Origin: a virus
Virus record (IMG/VR): IMGVR_UViG_3300010401_000010
Location: 1-54,697 of that record
Direction: 5' to 3' (one strand)
DNA length: 54,697 nt
The translations under genes were made by a program, and so were the position numbers. Under the pieces are notes generated by a model. That model saw only the letters and a program-made list of their open reading frames with translations, was not told where the DNA came from and did not search any database. Every line of letters starts with the position of its first letter. Position 1 is the first letter of the stretch. This document shows, piece after piece, positions 4,138-54,697 of this stretch.

Positions 4138-4170
4138 GAAAATTTGGGAGAGAGGAGAGGGGGCAGGTTC

Positions 4171-4743
4171 GTGGGTGAGATGCCGGAGGCGGTTCGGAAG
4201 ATGATGCCGACGATCAAGTACCTGGCCAAGAAGGTGAGCGCGCGCGGCGCCGCGAGCATCGAGGATCTGATCCAGGTGGGGGCCATGGCCGCGATCGACG
4301 CCCTCAATCGATTCGATCCGAAGAAGGGCCGCGTCTGGAACTTCCTTCGTCAGCGCGCCCACGGCGCCATGATCGACGAGCTGAGGAACCTGGACCACAT
4401 CTCCAGGATCTACCGGATCCGGGGACACATCAACGGCCGGCCGCTCCCCGAGACGCTGTCGCTCCAGACCTCGCCGATGGAGCTTGTTCCTCGGGTGTTG
4501 CCCGACAAGCGGGGCGAGTCCCCGACGCAGCGGTCCACGGTCCACGACTTCTGGACTGACGTCCGGGGCCACCTGAACGCCCGCGAGGCCCGAGCGCTGG
4601 TCCTCTACTACGCCGGCGACATGACGCTGAAGGCCGTGGCAGCCGCCATGGGCATCAGCGAATCGCGCGCCTGCCAAATCGTCGGCGGCGCAGTCCGCCG
4701 TCTACGGAAAACCTTCGCCAACCGCATCAGGAGGAACGCGTGA
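4171..4743 (+). CDS. RNA polymerase sigma-70 family factor (FliA/WhiG-like)
   Basis: This protein of about 190 aa would direct host RNA polymerase to phage promoters. Region 2 is clear (DLIQVGAMAAIDALNRFDP, then RQRAHGAMIDELRN), as is a C-terminal region 4 helix-turn-helix (LKAVAAAMGISESRACQIV). The part between is short, like minimal FliA/WhiG types and unlike primary sigma factors. I chose GTG at 4171 because a purine-rich site (gagaggagaggggg) precedes it; ATG at 4180 or TTG at 4144 are alternatives. Mid-operon placement suggests it is an early product that switches on later genes, which is inference. Confidence 0.85.
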   Translation: MGEMPEAVRKMMPTIKYLAKKVSARGAASIEDLIQVGAMAAIDALNRFDPKKGRVWNFLRQRAHGAMIDELRNLDHISRIYRIRGHINGRPLPETLSLQTSPMELVPRVLPDKRGESPTQRSTVHDFWTDVRGHLNAREARALVLYYAGDMTLKAVAAAMGISESRACQIVGGAVRRLRKTFANRIRRNA

Positions 4744-7393: not shown

Positions 7394-7893
7394 CGGTTCG
7401 TTACCCCCGTCACATCCTGGGGATCGACCCCGGCACCACGTCGCTGGGTTGGTTGCTGCTTGAGGTCCCGAAGTCTCAGAGCTTCAAGGCTCTGGACTTC
7501 GGGACCATCCAACCCCCACGCGGCGACTGCCTGCGCTACCGCTTCGCCTACGAGCTGGAGCAGCTCGCGCCCGTCATCGCGAGGGCCAAGGAGCTCTGGG
7601 CGGAGTGCGTCGTCGAGCGTCCCTTCGTGAACAAGAACCACATGGCGACGCTCGCCATCGCGGGGTCTCGCGCGATCGCGCTGGCCATGATCGGCCAGGT
7701 GGGGCTCCGCTTCACCGAGTACTCCCCGCAGAGCTGGAAGCAGATCACGGGCAGCGGCTCAGCCGACGCGCCCAGGTACACCTACGTCGTTCAGCAGCTG
7801 CTCAGGCTGCGCGACACCCTGCCCTATGACGTCGGCGCCGCCGGCGGGCTGGCGATCTACCACGGCAGCAAGGAAGAGAGAGAGGACGACTGA
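7390..7893 (+). CDS. RuvC-like Holliday junction resolvase
   Basis: This 167-aa RNase H-fold endonuclease is predicted to cleave four-way junctions formed during phage recombination and replication. It opens with HILGIDPGTTSLGW (first catalytic Asp, D13). VVERPF carries E76, and PYDVGAAGGLAIYH supplies D147. Length and spacing match RuvC and the phage branch of the family. The GTG start overlaps the previous stop. It sits beside the replication initiator and in the same unit as the recombination genes. Confidence 0.82.
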   Translation: MTVRYPRHILGIDPGTTSLGWLLLEVPKSQSFKALDFGTIQPPRGDCLRYRFAYELEQLAPVIARAKELWAECVVERPFVNKNHMATLAIAGSRAIALAMIGQVGLRFTEYSPQSWKQITGSGSADAPRYTYVVQQLLRLRDTLPYDVGAAGGLAIYHGSKEEREDD

Positions 7894-13981: not shown

Positions 13982-14178
13982 AGACCAAGTTCCACGACTT
14001 CGGGAGCGGCTGTCCGAAGTGCCGCGCGGCCGCCGGCGTGCGTAGCCACTGCCTCGGCTGCAAGGCCCTGAAGGACGGCTCCGACCATCACCACTGCGCC
14101 TGCACGTCCTGCGGCTTCGCCTGGGTGGAGAAGCCCGCCGACGCCATGAAAGCAACGAAAGGGGGAAAGAAGCGATGA
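13978..14178 (+). CDS. Small zinc-ribbon protein
   Basis: This 66-aa protein has GCPKCRA, HCLGCK and HHHCACTSCGFAW, six or more Cys with a His cluster, which fits a compact zinc ribbon. It overlaps both neighbours by ATGA, directly before the ParB-methyltransferase. It may be a DNA-binding accessory, but that is inference. Confidence 0.6.
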   Translation: MKTKFHDFGSGCPKCRAAAGVRSHCLGCKALKDGSDHHHCACTSCGFAWVEKPADAMKATKGGKKR

Positions 14179-15572
14179 ACACCATCCCGGCACCGAAGAT
14201 CGAGACCGTCGAGATCACGCGCCTCAAGCCGTGGGGAAAGAACCCGCGCAAGAACCATGCGGTCGACGCCATCGCGCGGTCGATCGAGGCCCTCGGGTAC
14301 CTCGCGCCCATCATCGTCCAGGCGGGGACGTACCGGATCCTGGCGGGCCACGGCCGCCTCGAGGCGCTGCAGCGCCTGGGCGTGCAGCAGGTCCCGGTCA
14401 TCGTGGCCGAGATCTCCGACGAGAAGGCGGACCTCTACACGATCGCCGACAACAAGCTGACCGAGGCGGCTTCGTGGGACGAGAACCTCCTGCGCGCGCT
14501 GGTCGGCGAGCTCAAGGGACTGGACGTCGACCTGACCGTGACGGGCTTCAGCGAAGGCGAGCTGAAGGAGATCGAGGGGCTCACTATCGACGACCCGGCC
14601 CTGGACGCCGAGGACGCCCTGGTCGAACCGGAGGCCTCCGCGATCACCCAGCCTGGGGACCTCTGGAGGCTCGGCGTCCACCGCGTGGCATGCGGGGACT
14701 CCACCACCGAGATCGCCTACCGTAAGCTGCTGGGCGGTGAGCACGCCGATCTGGTCTTCACGGACCCGCCATACGGCGTGGACTACAAGGCGAAGAAGTT
14801 CGACCTGATCAAGAACGACGAGCTGAAGGGCGAGAAGCTGCTGTCGTTCCTCGCCGAGGCGTTCTCCTGGACGTCCTTCTGCGCGAAGGACGACGCTGCG
14901 TTCTACATCTGGCACGCGTCCTCCACGCGCGGGTACTTCACGAGCGCGATGGCAATGGCCGGCCTCCTCGAACGCCAGTACCTGATCTGGGTGAAGCCGT
15001 CGCTCGTCCTGGGCCACGCCGACTACCAGTGGCAGCATGAGCCCTGCTTCTACGCGGCGAAGCAGGACGGCAAGCCCCAGTTCTACGGCGCGCGCGACCA
15101 GGCTACGGTGTGGCACGTCGCGCACCGGTCGAAGAAGTACAGCTCCGCCGTCCTGGGTTCGGGCGCCGTCGTGCAGGTCGGCAAGCAGCGCCTGTACGTG
15201 AGCGAGATCGTCCCGAAGAGCCGCAAGATCCGCGAATTCCGTCTCCCGCCCGACATGGCGATGAGCTTCATGGCCGAGCCGACGGCCACGGACTGCTGGA
15301 CCGTCGGACGCGACGCCGGCGCCGAGCATCCGACCCAGAAGCCCATCGAGCTGGCCCGTCGCGCGATCGAGAACAGCAGCAAGGTCGGGGAGATCGTGCT
15401 CGACCCGTTCCTCGGCAGCGGCTCGACGCTCATCGCCTCCGAGGTCACGCAACGCGTGTGCCGCGGCATCGAGCTGGCGCCGCAGTACGTGGACGTCATC
15501 GTGAAGCGCTGGCAGCTGCTCACCGGCGAGAAGGCGCAGAACCTCACGCGTCCGGAGGTGACGATTCCATGA
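14175..15572 (+). CDS. ParB-domain/DNA N6-adenine methyltransferase fusion
   Basis: This 465-aa fusion has a ParB/Srx N-terminal domain in residues 10-135, with PWGKNPRKNH and the loop AGHGRLEAL (residues 57-65). The methyltransferase domain has DPPY at 197-200 (motif IV) and the AdoMet motif LDPFLGSGST near 406-415, a beta-class order. Such fusions are frequent in phages and are thought to methylate phage DNA to evade restriction. The isolated ParB-like part probably does not segregate plasmids. Coupled by ATGA on both sides. Confidence 0.88.
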   Translation: MNTIPAPKIETVEITRLKPWGKNPRKNHAVDAIARSIEALGYLAPIIVQAGTYRILAGHGRLEALQRLGVQQVPVIVAEISDEKADLYTIADNKLTEAASWDENLLRALVGELKGLDVDLTVTGFSEGELKEIEGLTIDDPALDAEDALVEPEASAITQPGDLWRLGVHRVACGDSTTEIAYRKLLGGEHADLVFTDPPYGVDYKAKKFDLIKNDELKGEKLLSFLAEAFSWTSFCAKDDAAFYIWHASSTRGYFTSAMAMAGLLERQYLIWVKPSLVLGHADYQWQHEPCFYAAKQDGKPQFYGARDQATVWHVAHRSKKYSSAVLGSGAVVQVGKQRLYVSEIVPKSRKIREFRLPPDMAMSFMAEPTATDCWTVGRDAGAEHPTQKPIELARRAIENSSKVGEIVLDPFLGSGSTLIASEVTQRVCRGIELAPQYVDVIVKRWQLLTGEKAQNLTRPEVTIP

Positions 15573-15896: not shown

Positions 15897-15900
15897 TACC

Positions 15901-15934
15901 AAAATGGGATGAAAGTAATCCCATTTTCATCCCA
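15901..15934. promoter_or_regulatory. Nested overlapping inverted repeats (operator or switch)
   Basis: Two perfect 10-bp inverted repeats share bases. AAAATGGGAT (15901-15910) pairs with ATCCCATTTT (15918-15927), and TGGGATGAAA (15905-15914) pairs with TTTCATCCCA (15925-15934). As DNA this suits cooperative binding by a ribbon-helix-helix dimer. As RNA the two hairpins exclude each other. It sits between the regulator gene and TerS. Confidence 0.6.
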
Positions 15935-15980
15935 AAAGGTGCGAATCCGTCGATTGGCAGTCCTTTTTTCATGATTCATT

Positions 15981-15997
15981 CGCCATTATCCATGGCG
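15981..15997. promoter_or_regulatory. Short inverted repeat before TerS
   Basis: CGCCAT and ATGGCG form a perfect 6-bp inverted repeat with a 5-base spacer, ending two bases before the TerS ATG. It lies in the AT-richer gap 15897-15998, which holds this repeat, the larger nested repeats and a T6 run (15964-15969). No clear sigma-70 promoter is visible, so the late promoter may be of another class. Confidence 0.35.
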
Positions 15998-15998
15998 C

Positions 15999-16586
15999 AT
16001 GGACGCGAACGGCGATTCCACCCAACTCGGGAACGGCAACGGCTCTTCGAAGCCGGACCATCCCGAAATCACTCCGCTCCCGTCCGCCGCAGCGGCCCCT
16101 TCGGGGGCCCCGGTCAGCGCCTCCCCCGCGGATGCGCCGGCCGGAGCTCCCGAACCCCTCGTCGTAGTCGACGAGGACCTCCGCGATGAGAACGGCCGCA
16201 TCAGGCCGGGCAAGACCCTCAACAAGAAGGGCCGCCCTCCAGGCAGCCCGAACCTGAACGCCGAGCTGCAGAAGGCCGTCAAGAAGTACAAGCTCGGCCA
16301 GAAGAGCTACCTCGAGCTGCTCCTCACGAAGTCCCTTCAGGACGTCGAGTACGCCAAGCTCGTCGTCCCGAAGATCCTGTCGAACGTCGACGTGCCGGCG
16401 CCGGCGGGTGGGGTCACCATCCACAACACCCCGCAGGCGAACGCCTCGGCCAATCACGAAACCAATGTCGAACTTGTTGCAAAACTCCTCGCCGACGCTG
16501 ATGGCCGCGAGGACGCTGCTCGATTCACTGAGCGCGTCGCGGCTTGCGGCGGTTTCTCCCGGGATGCTGGGAATGTACGCAACTAG
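15999..16586 (+). CDS. Terminase small subunit (putative)
   Basis: This 195-aa protein has a low-complexity Ala/Pro-rich head (residues 25-60). A basic GKTLNKKGRPPGSPN segment and a helical block (ELQKAVKKYKLGQKSYLELL) follow, typical of small terminase or DNA-recognition proteins. It directly precedes the large subunit. It should recognise phage DNA and recruit the packaging motor. Its 3' end overlaps the large-subunit frame by up to 120 bases. The family is weakly conserved, so the call leans on context. Confidence 0.6.
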   Translation: MDANGDSTQLGNGNGSSKPDHPEITPLPSAAAAPSGAPVSASPADAPAGAPEPLVVVDEDLRDENGRIRPGKTLNKKGRPPGSPNLNAELQKAVKKYKLGQKSYLELLLTKSLQDVEYAKLVVPKILSNVDVPAPAGGVTIHNTPQANASANHETNVELVAKLLADADGREDAARFTERVAACGGFSRDAGNVRN

Positions 16587-46187: not shown

Positions 46188-46619
46188 ATGCAGACCGCGG
46201 ATTTGCTTCGCGCGGCCGCCCAGGCACTAGGGGTCACGACGGCCAAGCTCGACGAGGTCCTCCTGTGGCAGCGGCATCTCGCCCAGGAGCAGAAGCTCCA
46301 GGGAGAGCGCATCGCCAAGCTCGAGAAGGGGGAGGAGTGGACCGGCGAAGAGCGGCGCAACGTGCGCGAGCGGCTGAAGACCGGAGACCACACCTTCGAT
46401 GCGATCAAGGAGATCGCGGTCGACGCCAAGAAGACGGCCGATAGCGCCAAGCTCATGCTGGCCGAGGTGCTCAAGCGCCGGGCCTCCGACGGCACCCGAG
46501 TCCGCTCGAAGTGGTTGGAGTTTCTCAAGCTGGCCGCGCCGTACATCTGGGCGACTCTGTCGGCGGCTGGATCCTGGATCGCAGCCAAGTTCACGTATAC
46601 GGGGGGAGGACATCCCTAA
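46188..46619 (+). CDS. XhlA-like holin/membrane protein
   Basis: This 143-aa protein has a coiled-coil N-terminal part (KLDEVLLWQRHLAQEQKLQG and KLEKGEEWTGEERRN) and ends in one membrane span (WLEFLKLAAPYIWATLSAAG). The order coiled coil then C-terminal span fits XhlA-type proteins that help host lysis. It is placed after the virion genes, where lysis genes are usual. The next gene starts on its stop (TAATG). Confidence 0.5.
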   Translation: MQTADLLRAAAQALGVTTAKLDEVLLWQRHLAQEQKLQGERIAKLEKGEEWTGEERRNVRERLKTGDHTFDAIKEIAVDAKKTADSAKLMLAEVLKRRASDGTRVRSKWLEFLKLAAPYIWATLSAAGSWIAAKFTYTGGGHP

Positions 46620-47092
46620 TGGCCACAACGCGCCTGCTTCGGCCCGACGCGGTTCTGCTCGTGGAAGATCACGAACAGACGCGGGCCACCTACAAGGAGT
46701 GGGTCGAGTCCGCGGGCTTCGTGGTCATTGAGGCATCCACCAAGGCGATGGCGCTGATGCACCTCGACCGCCTGGACCTCTCGGCGATCGTGCTCGACCT
46801 GATCCTCCCGAACGGCCACGGCCGCGAGGTCGTGGACACGCTGGTCGCCAAGCGCGACGACGTGCCAGTGGTGGTCGTGACGGGCTTCCCGGATCCGCCG
46901 GTCTTCGGCTTCCCGGTGACCTGCGTCCTTCGAAAGCCTTTCCCGCGCGGCATGCTGCTCAACGCGGTGAACGCCGCGGCCGAGACCGGCAGAAGTCTCC
47001 GATCGATTCAGCGGTCCACCAGGGTGCTCCACGAGAGGTGCAATCGTCCCCTCCCAGAGCTCCCGCCCGAAAGCCCGAAGCAAGCTCAATAG
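46619..47092 (+). CDS. CheY-like response regulator receiver protein
   Basis: This 157-aa single receiver domain has all key sites: the acidic pair E16-D17, the phosphoacceptor D60 in AIVLDLILPNGHG, T88 in VVVVTGFPDPP and K106 in LRKPFP. Residues 125-157 form a short basic and Pro-rich tail without a DNA-binding domain. It overlaps the membrane protein stop and sits before a lipoprotein at the end of the late operon. Phages seldom carry receiver domains. It may tap a host histidine kinase to time lysis or alter behaviour, which is inference. Confidence 0.88.
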   Translation: MATTRLLRPDAVLLVEDHEQTRATYKEWVESAGFVVIEASTKAMALMHLDRLDLSAIVLDLILPNGHGREVVDTLVAKRDDVPVVVVTGFPDPPVFGFPVTCVLRKPFPRGMLLNAVNAAAETGRSLRSIQRSTRVLHERCNRPLPELPPESPKQAQ

Positions 47093-48325: not shown

Positions 48326-49243
48326 CTACTTCGCCTCGAAGCTGCCGTTCTTGAGGATCTCCCGGCCTTCCACAACGAAGGACATGTCGTCGACGAAGAC
48401 GCGCCCCTGTCGGGATCCCCGATTGAAGCCGAATCTGAGCTTCGCGGCCTTCTCGGGAACAACGCCTTCAACCTCCAGCTTCGACCAGATCGGGCGGTCG
48501 ATCATGGCGTGCGGCCCGGTGGAGGATAGGACCTTGTCGCCCACGTCCAGGAACGCGATGCACATCAGGTCGGCGCCCTTCTCTGTTCCATCGGTAAGGA
48601 CCCAGCACGACGCCTTATACTTCTGCCCGACCGCGACAGGAATGTCATCGGTGCGGAACCAGGCCATACCGCTCGCCCCGGGATCCGCAGGCGGGATCAG
48701 CTTAATTGCAACCGTACCCGACCGGACAAACTCGGAATCGATGCCCGCGTTGCATTTCGCGTTCAGCGGGAACCAGCCCTTCGCAGGGTAGGGACCAAGG
48801 TTGGCCGAGGGCTTACCAGTCCGCTGAATCGCAAGGACCCGCTCGCGGGTCTTGTCCTTCCAGACCGGATCCGTGAGCTTCGGCCATGCCTCGCCAAAGT
48901 GAAAGAGGGCGCGCTCCCGCAGCCTGGGGCCGAGCTGCTTGTTCGGCTTCTCCAGGAGGAGCCAGAGATCCGCCACCTCGATTGAGAAGAGGGCGCTCTC
49001 CTTCGGTTCGAGATCCTTCCGCGCGACGTGGGCGAACCCGTCGTCGCCCCCCTTGGCCATGAATGGAAGACCCTCGGCCCAGTTTCCTGCCACGAAGCAC
49101 AGGTGCTTCCCCAGCGCCAGGTTCGCCGCGGCGTCGTCCGGCGTCTTCTCGACCGCCAGGCGCAGCTGCTCGCCCTTCTTCTTCTCCGCCGGCGAAAGGT
49201 CCTGGGGACCGAGCAGCAGGGCGAGCGCGAGTGTCATGACCAT
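48326..49243 (-). CDS. Secreted planctomycete-type protein (cargo)
   Basis: This 305-aa protein has a signal (VMTLALALLLG). Residues 15-125 contain NLALGKHLCFVAGNWAEGLP and MAKGGDDGFAHVARKDLEP, a layout I know from planctomycete exported proteins. The C-terminal half (SGTVAIKLIPPADPGASGMA, GRVFVDDMSFVVEGREILKN) resembles a carbohydrate-binding jelly roll. ATG 49243 follows ggaggccatt. It is likely host-derived cargo expressed in the lysogen. The family link is from memory. Confidence 0.6.
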   Translation of the reverse strand: MVMTLALALLLGPQDLSPAEKKKGEQLRLAVEKTPDDAAANLALGKHLCFVAGNWAEGLPFMAKGGDDGFAHVARKDLEPKESALFSIEVADLWLLLEKPNKQLGPRLRERALFHFGEAWPKLTDPVWKDKTRERVLAIQRTGKPSANLGPYPAKGWFPLNAKCNAGIDSEFVRSGTVAIKLIPPADPGASGMAWFRTDDIPVAVGQKYKASCWVLTDGTEKGADLMCIAFLDVGDKVLSSTGPHAMIDRPIWSKLEVEGVVPEKAAKLRFGFNRGSRQGRVFVDDMSFVVEGREILKNGSFEAK

Positions 49244-49264
49244 AATGGCCTCCTGGGTTCTTGG

Positions 49265-49273
49265 ACTATAGCA
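49265..49273 (-). promoter_or_regulatory. Extended -10 promoter for the secreted cargo gene
   Basis: TGCTATAGT on the minus strand is a good extended -10 element, about 22 bases before the ATG of the cargo gene and 13 bases past the integrase stop. A near -35 is not seen, which extended -10 promoters do not need. The gene could also be read through from the integrase. Confidence 0.45.
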
Positions 49274-49286
49274 CAAGTTCAACGTT

Positions 49287-50288
49287 TCATGGATTGCGCC
49301 TGGCGCGGGGGTGGGTCCGGCGGAGCTCGGCCTTGAGTCGGTCCTGGGCGACGTGGGTATAGATCTCGGTGCTGGCCAGCACCCCGTGACGAAGGAACTC
49401 CTGAACGGCCCGAAGATCCATCCCGCGATTCAGCAGGTGCGTCGCGGCGCTGTGCCTGAACATGTGGGGGTGCGCGGGGCCCGAGACGCCGGCGCGGGCC
49501 GCGGTGTCGTGGACCATCTTCCAGAGCGGGTAGTATGAAAGCCGCTGACCGAGCGACGAGACGAAGAGGGCCTGCTCGTGCTCCCGACCGCGAGCGGCCA
49601 GGATCTCGGTGCGCTCCGGCAGCCAGGCCCGGACCGCCTTCACCGCCTCCTCGGTGAAATGCAGCAGGCCCTCCTGCCCGCCCTTTCCCCTCACCTTCGC
49701 CGTGCCGTCGTCCAGGTTCAGCCACTCCATATTGATGCCGCGAACCTCGTCCTGCCGAGCGCCCGAAGCGTAGAGGACCTCCAAGATGGCCCGGTCGCGC
49801 GCGGTCCGACCAGCGGCAAGGATCTTCTCGACCTGAGGTTCCGTCCAGAATTCTGGGAGCGGTCGATCGACGTGGATGGGTTCGAGATCGTCAGCCGGGT
49901 TGTGATCCACCTTGCCCTCCCGTTTTAGCCAGTGGTACAGCGACGTGATGGCGACGATGCAGTCCTTGATCGTCTTCGGCTTCTTCTCCTCCTGATGCAT
50001 GTGGACCATCCAGGCTTCGAGGAACCGGAAGGTCACGGTGAAGGGGTTCTGCTTGCGAAAGCTCAGATAGCGGAAGAAGGTCTTGAAGTGCCCGGTATAG
50101 ACTCTGACTGTGTTAGGTTTGAAATTCCGAAGCACCGTCGCGTAGAGAATCCAGCCGCGTGTCAGATCGTCTGCCACGGCGGCGGTCTCTGTTCCGCCTG
50201 CCACTAATTCCCAGCCGCTGCCCGCTGCCCTATTTCCCCTCGCGGGCCCAACCTCTCGCCTTGTCCCCCGGGCACCCTCCTCGTTCAC
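49287..50288 (-). CDS. int: Tyrosine recombinase / phage integrase (XerC/D-like)
   Basis: This 333-aa enzyme should integrate the circular genome at a host site. The N-terminal SAM-like domain spans residues 40-140. The catalytic set is complete: R178 (ASGARQDE), K202 (VRGKGG), H275-x2-R278 (HMFRHSA), H301 and the nucleophile Y310 (TEIYTHV). The first 36 residues are low-complexity and the GTG start has a poor site, so a later GTG may be the real one. No excisionase is recognised nearby. Confidence 0.9.
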   Translation of the reverse strand: MNEEGARGTRREVGPARGNRAAGSGWELVAGGTETAAVADDLTRGWILYATVLRNFKPNTVRVYTGHFKTFFRYLSFRKQNPFTVTFRFLEAWMVHMHQEEKKPKTIKDCIVAITSLYHWLKREGKVDHNPADDLEPIHVDRPLPEFWTEPQVEKILAAGRTARDRAILEVLYASGARQDEVRGINMEWLNLDDGTAKVRGKGGQEGLLHFTEEAVKAVRAWLPERTEILAARGREHEQALFVSSLGQRLSYYPLWKMVHDTAARAGVSGPAHPHMFRHSAATHLLNRGMDLRAVQEFLRHGVLASTEIYTHVAQDRLKAELRRTHPRARRNP

Positions 50289-50434
50289 GCCGAATGTTTC
50301 GGCCCGGTCGCAGGGTGCCTTTCCCTTGGGGGTTTAGGCGTCGCGGAGTCTTCGGTCAGGGGAGAGGGTACCAACGCAATTTGAACAGGTCAAAGATTTT
50401 CTACGCAAAAAAATAGCACTCGCTCCAATATTTA
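50289..50434. other. Non-coding control and possible attP region
   Basis: No gene is supported here. The part next to the integrase is GC-rich; 50380-50434 is AT-rich. TTTGA-acagg-TCAAA (50380-50394) is a short inverted repeat that could be an operator. Phage attachment sites normally lie beside the integrase, so attP is probably within this gap, but its core cannot be seen from one sequence. Confidence 0.4.
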
Positions 50435-50464
50435 TTGACACATTTTCTAGAATTGTGCTACTAA
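50435..50464 (+). promoter_or_regulatory. Early rightward promoter
   Basis: A perfect -35 TTGACA (50435-50440), an 18-base spacer with TGC just before the -10, and TACTAA (50459-50464) form an extended sigma-70 promoter in an AT-rich patch. The predicted start near 50471 is where the first stem of the folded leader begins. Confidence 0.75.
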
Positions 50465-50469
50465 GACTA

Positions 50470-50677
50470 CGTGCCCCAAGCGAAGAGAGTCAACAAGAGC
50501 CCGACGGTGCCCAGCCATCCCGCATTGCGCTTGGGGCACGGCCGTCTCGGAAGAACGGTTCCACGCCGAGTGGGGCGGCTGGGTTACGACGGGCTCATGA
50601 TCGGCGGAGCGGCGGCTTCAGAGTAGTTGCTAGTTTCCGACTTCACTTAGGTGGAGACGGAAACCTGAAGCCGCCGC
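50470..50677 (+). ncRNA. Structured early leader RNA with pseudoknot
   Basis: Four helices are seen. P1 is 13 perfect pairs (50470-50482 with 50528-50540). A helix of 11 of 12 pairs joins the P1 loop (50510-50521) to a downstream strand (50572-50583), making an H-type pseudoknot. P2 is 13 perfect pairs (50609-50621 with 50665-50677). P3 inside it is 13 of 14 pairs (50633-50646 with 50651-50664) with loop TTAG. The non-Watson-Crick pairs (50518-50575, 50643-50654) are G-U only on this strand. It ends just before the first early ribosome-binding site. Function unknown. Confidence 0.65.
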
Positions 50678-50698
50678 CCCCGGAATGGGAGGCGGACG

Positions 50699-50911
50699 GT
50701 GGCGAACAGTAGCGGGGCGCAGGGCGCCCAGGACAAGGTCCGGTATTTCTGTCACTCCTGCGGCGGGGTGACGATCTGGCTCACGCCCAAAGAAGCCGCT
50801 GATCAGCGGCTAGAGAAGCACGACCTCGAAGCCTTTCCCCTCTCGGGCGACCCCAGGGACCAGGCTTTCCGCACCATCCAGGCCAGCCGGCCGGAGGTGG
50901 CCCTTGGGTAA
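50699..50911 (+). CDS. Small CxxC early protein
   Basis: This 70-aa protein has YFCHSCGGVTIWLTPKEA with a CxxC knuckle and a short helical tail. The GTG start follows gggaggcgga, immediately after the structured leader, making it the first early gene. The next gene starts TTG inside its end. Function unknown. Confidence 0.55.
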   Translation: MANSSGAQGAQDKVRYFCHSCGGVTIWLTPKEAADQRLEKHDLEAFPLSGDPRDQAFRTIQASRPEVALG

Positions 50912-51248
50912 GCACACGCCCGGACCTTGGAAGCTTGGAAACTCACCGCACGATGTCATCTCAACCGAGCCCGTCGAAGGCGGCGCGCACCCGATGGATG
51001 AGGAGCACGTCCAGCACTACGGCGGTTACCTCATCTGCGAATCGGCCACGACGGACAACGCCCGCCTGATCGCGGCTGCACCAGACCTCAAGGACTCCCT
51101 GAAGTGGGCGCTGGAAGCCCTCGAAGCTTCCGACCTCGCCACCTGGCCGGACTCCATCGGCTGGGACGCGGGCGCCTACAAGATCGGACTCCAGCAGGCC
51201 AAGGACGCTATCGCCAAGGCCGAGCCGCAGGCGGTGGACCGTGGCTAA
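50904..51248 (+). CDS. HTPGPW-motif phage protein
   Basis: This 114-aa protein begins GKHTPGPWKLG and has TTDNARLIAAAPDLKDSLKW, the two signature segments of a very common phage early protein of unknown function. A TTG start with ggaggtgg upstream fits best. Overlaps at both ends show a coupled operon. Confidence 0.7.
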   Translation: MGKHTPGPWKLGNSPHDVISTEPVEGGAHPMDEEHVQHYGGYLICESATTDNARLIAAAPDLKDSLKWALEALEASDLATWPDSIGWDAGAYKIGLQQAKDAIAKAEPQAVDRG

Positions 51249-54225: not shown

Positions 54226-54697
54226 ATGACGATCAGGATCACGACCAAGGGAATCGGAGCGCACGACCAGGACCTCGAACTTCGGCATCACACCCTGCTG
54301 GTGGGCCCGAACGGTTCGGGCAAGTCGAAGCTGGCTGAGGCGATCAGGATGCTGGCCCTGGGCTACGTGCCGGCGTTGGGGAAGCGACCGGTCGACCTGG
54401 CCGCGCTGATGCACGGCGAATCGATGTCGGTCGAGCTCACCATGGACGGCGGGCGGACCATCCGACGGACCCTGGAGCGGCGCGACCAGGGCTACACGGC
54501 CTCGGCGGAGGCCTCCTGGATGCGCCAGGCCAAGCCGGGCGAGGTGTCGAAGGCGATCACGAAGCTCTTCGGCAACGAGGAACTCGACGTGGCCGAGTGC
54601 CTGGACATCCGCCAGCTGCTCGCCGCCACTCCGAACCAGCGTTGTGCCCGGATGGAGGAGCTCCTCAACGCGGCCGCCCGGAGTGGCGACGACATCG
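54226..54697 (+). CDS. SMC/Rad50-like recombination ATPase, N-terminal part
   Basis: This is the 5' portion of the 762-aa gene that continues at 1-1940 after circular closure. The N-terminus (TIRITTKGIGAHDQDLELRH) is the first strand of an SMC-type head, and Walker A LLVGPNGSGKS covers residues 24-34. It has the strong start context ggaggtggcgaatg, shared with the tail chaperone gene. It follows the annealing protein by about 80 bases. Confidence 0.88.
   Translation, partial: MTIRITTKGIGAHDQDLELRHHTLLVGPNGSGKSKLAEAIRMLALGYVPALGKRPVDLAALMHGESMSVELTMDGGRTIRRTLERRDQGYTASAEASWMRQAKPGEVSKAITKLFGNEELDVAECLDIRQLLAATPNQRCARMEELLNAAARSGDDI
54575..54697. repeat. Terminal direct repeat, right copy (circular closure)
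   Basis: Identical to bases 1-123 and in the same frame of the same gene. It marks the overlap at which the circle was opened. Confidence 0.95.

Follow-up and report, generated by a model that had tools for sequence, protein, structure and literature searches.

A structured, pseudoknot-capable RNA leader at the predicted start of a phage operon is conserved in one distant relative

The window, that is the whole stretch of DNA analysed here, is an entire virus record of 54,697 bases (IMG/VR IMGVR_UViG_3300010401_000010) with a GC content of 65% (AT 35%). Because a direct repeat of 123 bases is found in identical form at both record ends (positions 1-123 and 54575-54697), the sequence probably represents a complete, circularly permuted genome; one gene, SbcC-like by eye, runs across the circular junction from 54196 to 1940. 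The window encodes terminase, portal and head proteins, a sigma factor, an HTH protein and DNA methyltransferases, including one fused with a ParB-like nuclease domain (14175-15572). No close relative was found in the annotated phage collection, the portal matches being about 24% identical. A stand-alone response-regulator receiver domain protein is encoded beside the tail genes (46511-47092) and shares 43% identity with its counterpart in the relative described below. A tyrosine integrase gene is adjoined by a minus-strand gene (48326-49282) for a cargo-like protein with a carbohydrate-binding-like C-terminal part, of which the relative carries a 50% identical copy; the hunch that this cargo gene is planctomycete-like was not supported by protein searches.

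The integrase gene lies beside a structured leader of about 210 bases (50470-50677, plus strand), which fills the interval between a predicted transcript start and the first Shine-Dalgarno (SD) sequence. Between the integrase gene and the promoter, an 8-bp inverted repeat (GGCACCCT/AGGGTGCC, 50271-50319) is a possible operator or part of attP. The predicted promoter (50435-50464, plus strand) consists of a perfect -35 hexamer, TTGACA (50435-50440), and, after a spacer of 18, the -10 hexamer TACTAA (50459-50464), with an upstream TG at 50456-50457; the 70 nt upstream are 67% AT as compared to 35% genome-wide. These features make the strong promoter proposed in the first-pass annotation plausible, but the adjective is overstated since the -10 is poor (3/6) and a strict promoter scan did not list the site. 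G50471 is the seventh base past the -10, and the first helix of the leader, P1, therefore starts at the predicted start or one base before it. In the relative, a CATAAT hexamer is located 5 nt before P1, the same distance as TACTAA in the window. Downstream of the leader, the SD sequence GGGAGG (50687-50692, plus strand), whose flanks are the part best conserved with the relative, precedes a gene for 70 amino acids (50699-50911, plus strand) with a weak zinc-ribbon likeness that fails the cut-off (E 0.06). The second gene (50904-51248, plus strand) belongs to the PHROG 1273 family and is likewise second after the leader in the relative. The leader belongs to a rightward, probably early, operon.

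Three helices, all on the plus strand, make up the leader. P1 is a perfect inverted repeat in which 50470-50482 pairs with 50528-50540 (13/13 bp); it spans 71 nt, encloses a loop of 45 nt and starts so close to the predicted 5' end that no more than one base there stays unpaired. P2 joins 50497-50516, within the P1 loop, to 50577-50596, beyond P1, and pairs 17 of its 20 positions on a single diagonal, with A.A, G.A and U.U mismatches and one G-U pair. With one P2 arm inside the P1 loop and the other past P1, the two helices cross in the layout of an H-type pseudoknot. P3 pairs 50609-50621 with 50665-50677 (13/13 bp) and ends 9 nt upstream of the SD. Within it lies an inner hairpin (50633-50664, arms 50633-50646 and 50651-50664, TTAG loop) in which 12 Watson-Crick pairs, one G-U pair and one A.A mismatch give 13/14; the relative has no such inner hairpin. 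The two perfect 13-bp stems and the 13/14-bp inner hairpin had been described correctly from the sequence, whereas the helix given there as an 11/12-bp loop-to-downstream pairing is present but longer, corresponding to P2. The imperfect pairs had been said to be G-U only; both G-U pairs do fit a plus-strand transcript only, but the mismatches in P2 and in the P3 inner hairpin show that the statement was too broad.

Folding of a 221-nt segment gave a z-score of -7.36, none of 200 shuffles being as stable. The leader was also the strongest of 1090 segments of 200 nt from both strands (z -6.1, next best -5.0), and P1 together with both P2 blocks (summed) formed the top crossing-helix set in the genome. 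The leader of the relative reached z = -4.75 against its own shuffles.

This relative, IMGVR_UViG_3300045933_000271 (IMG/VR), was found by a terminase search and has a TerL 74% identical to that of the window. Tail, head and packaging genes are syntenic, with up to 84% identity; identity falls to 40% in the integrase, and the early region has diverged strongly. When the relative was searched at the DNA level with the leader region, the sole significant match was the ribosome-binding site of the first early gene, with a PHROG 1273 homologue just downstream. Directly upstream of this site, on the minus strand, lies the corresponding leader (L087, 8534 to 8385). Its P1, CGTGACACGAGCG...CGCTCGTGTCACG, is a perfect 13-bp stem spanning exactly 71 nt as in the window; GAACCCGA and further segments in the P1 loop pair beyond the stem, so that P2 again crosses P1; and P3 is a perfect 14-bp hairpin that ends 3 nt before the SD. 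As a yardstick for chance, the 108,358 positions on the two strands of the relative contain 8 starts of inverted repeats of at least 13 bp with a span of 50-110; one of these 8 falls on the homologous site, with a span identical to that in the window. The structured leader RNA capable of a pseudoknot that the first-pass annotation described is supported, its H-type layout being kept in the relative.

Of the 34 pairs that could be compared, 11 differ between the phages at both bases and still pair; no pair differs at a single base with loss of pairing. The double changes were distributed as three in P1 (with no break), one in P2 (outer block) and seven in P3; at one further position an A.A mismatch in the window is replaced by A-U in the relative. 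When the partners were slid by 1-3 columns as a control, 0-2 double changes were obtained. It is to be noted that the comparison comprises two sequences, too few for formal covariation statistics, and that the helices were picked as helices; P3 was aligned as a whole helix, starting at the base of the stem, so its seven changes indicate a kept hairpin, not proven column homology. The combination of 11 double changes and no one-sided change indicates that selection acts on base-pairing. We conclude from the aligned sequences that the structure is real and is conserved between two distant phages with largely different sequence. Compensatory changes, whose absence from relatives had been named beforehand as a refutation, were thus found, and the structure is not refuted on this ground.

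The same comparison bears on two readings in which the region is not primarily a folded RNA. An element acting as DNA, such as an attachment site, an operator or a replication signal, would be in keeping with perfect 13-bp inverted repeats and with the neighbouring integrase gene. However, complementarity is kept while the arm sequence is not, something that protein-binding dyads do not need and which points to pairing within one strand. The arms lie 43-45 nt apart, and all elements are confined to one strand between the predicted start and the SD, with G-U pairs that suit only the plus-strand RNA; we regard a DNA-level element as very improbable. The second reading is a leaderless leader peptide, the region being coding or its translation unfolding the RNA. 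A GTG at the predicted +1, placed alike in both phages, opens a frame of 51 codons in the window and 36 codons in the relative; as far as the end of P2, the distances between conserved blocks differ between the phages by multiples of three, and the peptides are 39% alike over 33 amino acids, a marginal similarity (E 9e-4 in a single comparison), with a matched-frame score of 42 as compared to 28-29 for other matched frames. Against this, the GTG start codon lies inside P1, where every substitution alters an amino acid and every one keeps the base pair. In the structure-based alignment, differences amount to 7, 12 and 9 of 24 at the three codon positions, with no excess at the third; in addition, the two frames end differently, and at 65% GC open frames as long as these occur often. 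A leader peptide hence appears improbable. A conserved protein frame across the region had been listed as a second possible refutation, and it is only partly excluded: the codon-position pattern and the P1 changes argue against it, but an open frame at the predicted +1 exists in both phages.

Searches for further members returned no third example from phage and virus records or genome contigs. DNA similarity to phage records and an exact DNA pattern detected no relative carrying the leader, nor did protein searches with the integrase, a recombination-type protein, the PHROG 1273 protein, a PD-(D/E)XK-like protein and the cargo gene; portal and chimeric conserved-block searches recovered the same relative only, and nothing was recovered from genome contigs. 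We attribute the failure of most protein searches to the fact that the lineage is barely sampled. A scan for the pseudoknot covered 80 PHROG 1273 loci; a P1 covariance model was run on 48 of the corresponding records, and at 63 of the loci the upstream sequence was checked for folds of unusual stability. The one extra P1-model match (L060 record, E 0.008) was rejected, the sense strand there being unstructured (z +1.5), and the other stable upstream folds were unlike the leader. Matches to the ribosome-binding-site motif outside the relative were two unrelated coding stretches. A search of Rfam 15 found no family at gathering score in the window and only sub-threshold, chance-level matches with E up to 10, in agreement with the earlier statement that the RNA belongs to no known family, and we found no description of such a leader in the literature. 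The leader is therefore a structured phage-mRNA leader, a known kind of element, in a form that is new and not in Rfam.

How P1 and P2 relate to each other was considered with a nested folding program, whose energies cover no pseudoknots. In both phages, the favoured nested fold has an extended P2 hairpin and lacks P1, with an advantage of about 11-12 kcal/mol over nested folds that contain P1. When the transcript was folded as it grows, P1 formed first, being predicted for lengths of up to about 120 nt (window) and 90 nt (relative); in the relative, the extra pairing inside the P2 loop is weak and P1 is fully kept. The energies of P1 and P2 sum, before any pseudoknot penalty, to about -57 (window) and -63 (relative) kcal/mol, values that compare with the nested minima of -62 (window) and -53 (relative) kcal/mol. 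On these predictions coexistence of the two helices as a pseudoknot is plausible, more so in the relative, the alternative being that they form by turns.

We tentatively interpret the leader as a cis-acting 5' leader RNA that would shield the 5' end of the message and insulate the ribosome-binding site with a proximal hairpin, a reading to which we assign a probability of roughly 0.4. It is preferred because bacterial mRNAs are known to be stabilised by 5' secondary structure that hides the 5' end from RppH/RNase E (PMC3997798). In the proposed sequence of events, P1 would form once about 71 nt have been transcribed, hiding the 5' end; P2 would then pair the P1 loop with the following segment to yield a compact pseudoknot; and the last to form would be P3, an independent hairpin next to the SD. 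The 5' block would protect the 5' end from 5'-end-dependent decay and lock up the G/C-rich leader, whereas P3 would separate this block from the ribosome-binding site, leaving an early message both stable and translatable. Three elements are constant in both phages: pairing of the 5' end at the predicted start, a block with pseudoknot layout and, 9 nt (window) or 3 nt (relative) ahead of the SD, a hairpin. In the window, the pseudoknot block raises the predicted openness of the SD from about 0.35 to 0.8 in transcripts that extend no more than 45 nt into the gene; the effect vanishes for longer window transcripts and is absent in the relative. A parallel is offered by ompA-type 5'-terminal stem-loops, in which a stem likewise sits at the very 5' end with almost no unpaired bases (PMC3997798, for the principle), but in the leader the 45-nt loop closed by the stem takes part in a second helix. 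It counts against simple shielding that a shield alone would have no obvious need for a pseudoknot of such constant geometry. Also conceivable, though doubtful, is a new class of element whose 5'-terminal pseudoknot would target the machinery of transcription or decay directly, perhaps with coupling to translation of the leaderless open reading frame; examples would be a polymerase modifier that works without protein and is unrelated to put, or an element that resists 5' nucleases.

The promoter-proximal position of a structured RNA in a phage early operon, together with the fact that no N- or Q-like protein was noticed, raises the possibility of a put-like, cis-acting antitermination or antipausing RNA, whose nascent pseudoknot would bind RNA polymerase and make it resist pausing and termination through the early operon. 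HK022 put RNA is about 70 nt long and folds into two tandem stem-loops with a short triplex (PMC9378689). The putL and putR sites resemble the leader in being structured RNAs that start temperate-phage early transcripts, and the first domain of the leader, 71 nt in both phages, is close to their 5' domain of about 70 nt. By anatomy, however, we rejected the leader as a put RNA: both phages have an H-type layout, in which a 13-bp 5' stem is crossed by a second long helix and followed by an SD-adjacent hairpin, instead of tandem stem-loops. Furthermore, no intrinsic-terminator-like site was found on the sense strand in the downstream stretches scanned in both phages. An alternative way to control later genes is also at hand, since the phage encodes a sigma-70-type factor with regions 2 and 4 (4144-4743), a candidate for the switch to these genes. 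In view of the anatomy and of the failure to find intrinsic terminators on the downstream sense strand, the antitermination option raised by the first-pass annotation is not favoured and appears unlikely, though it keeps some weight.

Another unlikely reading is an operator or riboswitch, with translation or elongation of the early operon governed by a ligand, or by a protein such as possibly the small product of the first gene, that would bind to the pseudoknot. This reading draws on the presence of a pseudoknot upstream of a phage gene, on the alternative folds available (P1 versus extended P2) and on a short unpaired TGATCG between P2 and P3 that is conserved in both phages. On the other hand, no U-tract follows any helix and no terminator-like site with a U-tract exists in the leader of either phage, so that it is not an intrinsic attenuator or intrinsic-terminator riboswitch. 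The first-gene products also differ, with 70 amino acids in the window and 134 in the relative. Masking of the SD by the freed 5' arm of P1 was predicted for short transcripts of the window only, with nothing consistent in the relative; we therefore rejected a conserved switch of this kind, and the earlier riboswitch proposal is not supported in its simple SD-masking form. A phage example of a leader operator is T4 gene 32, where gp32 acts on its own leader and a pseudoknot near the 5' end lies 67 nt upstream, followed by unstructured A+U-rich sequence that gp32 binds (PMC3014915). The gene 32 leaders of T4, T2 and RB69 share with the present one a pseudoknot near the mRNA 5' end, upstream of the ribosome-binding site of the first gene. 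Their pseudoknot is much smaller. The leader described here has a high G/C content and is structured as far as the SD; the layout of unstructured sequence over the ribosome-binding site was rejected, the G/C-rich P3 hairpin taking that place in both phages.

Two other architectures with crossing or loop-mediated pairing were compared. HDV-like ribozymes form a nested double pseudoknot with a P1 of about 7 bp and with P3 between the 5' arm of P2 and the 3' arm of P1. The leader was rejected as a member, with only 11 or 3 nt in this interval, a P1 of 13 bp and no Rfam match. In IncI/IncB-type plasmid rep leaders, the loop of a leader hairpin pairs downstream, ahead of the ribosome-binding site, by short loop pairings, and an antisense RNA and a translated leader peptide take part. 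These leaders share the loop-to-downstream pairing before a ribosome-binding site but differ in their antisense RNA, for which no partner was found in this phage genome.

A compact and autonomous fold of 150-208 nt at a promoter could also be the source of a trans-acting small RNA, serving for instance in counter-defence or host regulation, with the operon transcribed by read-through. Such an RNA would have to end without a terminator, and in both phages the transcript runs into a conserved SD and gene. Neither phage genome contains a complementary target longer than 12-13 nt elsewhere, which also argues against a phage-encoded antisense immunity RNA; a small RNA of this type is improbable.

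As a cis-acting leader, the element would join a small number of structured RNA leaders that influence early transcription, decay or translation in phages with no dedicated protein involved. The comparative support, the fixed geometry and the freely varying sequence make its function open to mutants in which pairing is broken and restored. The case also illustrates how an RNA family may be limited to a phage lineage with very little sampling and escape detection by Rfam.

The other stable segments of the window, around 7400 and at 15900-16300, consist mostly of coding sequence and do not represent copies of the leader. The former includes a coding stretch, RuvC-like by eye (ILGIDPGTTSLGW, 7397-7893), with unusually strong folding on both strands. 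In the latter, two overlapping and mutually exclusive 10-bp inverted repeats (15901-15934; AAAATGGGAT/ATCCCATTTT and TGGGATGAAA/TTTCATCCCA), without any equivalent in the corresponding stretch of the relative, sit just 5' of the gene preceding TerL.
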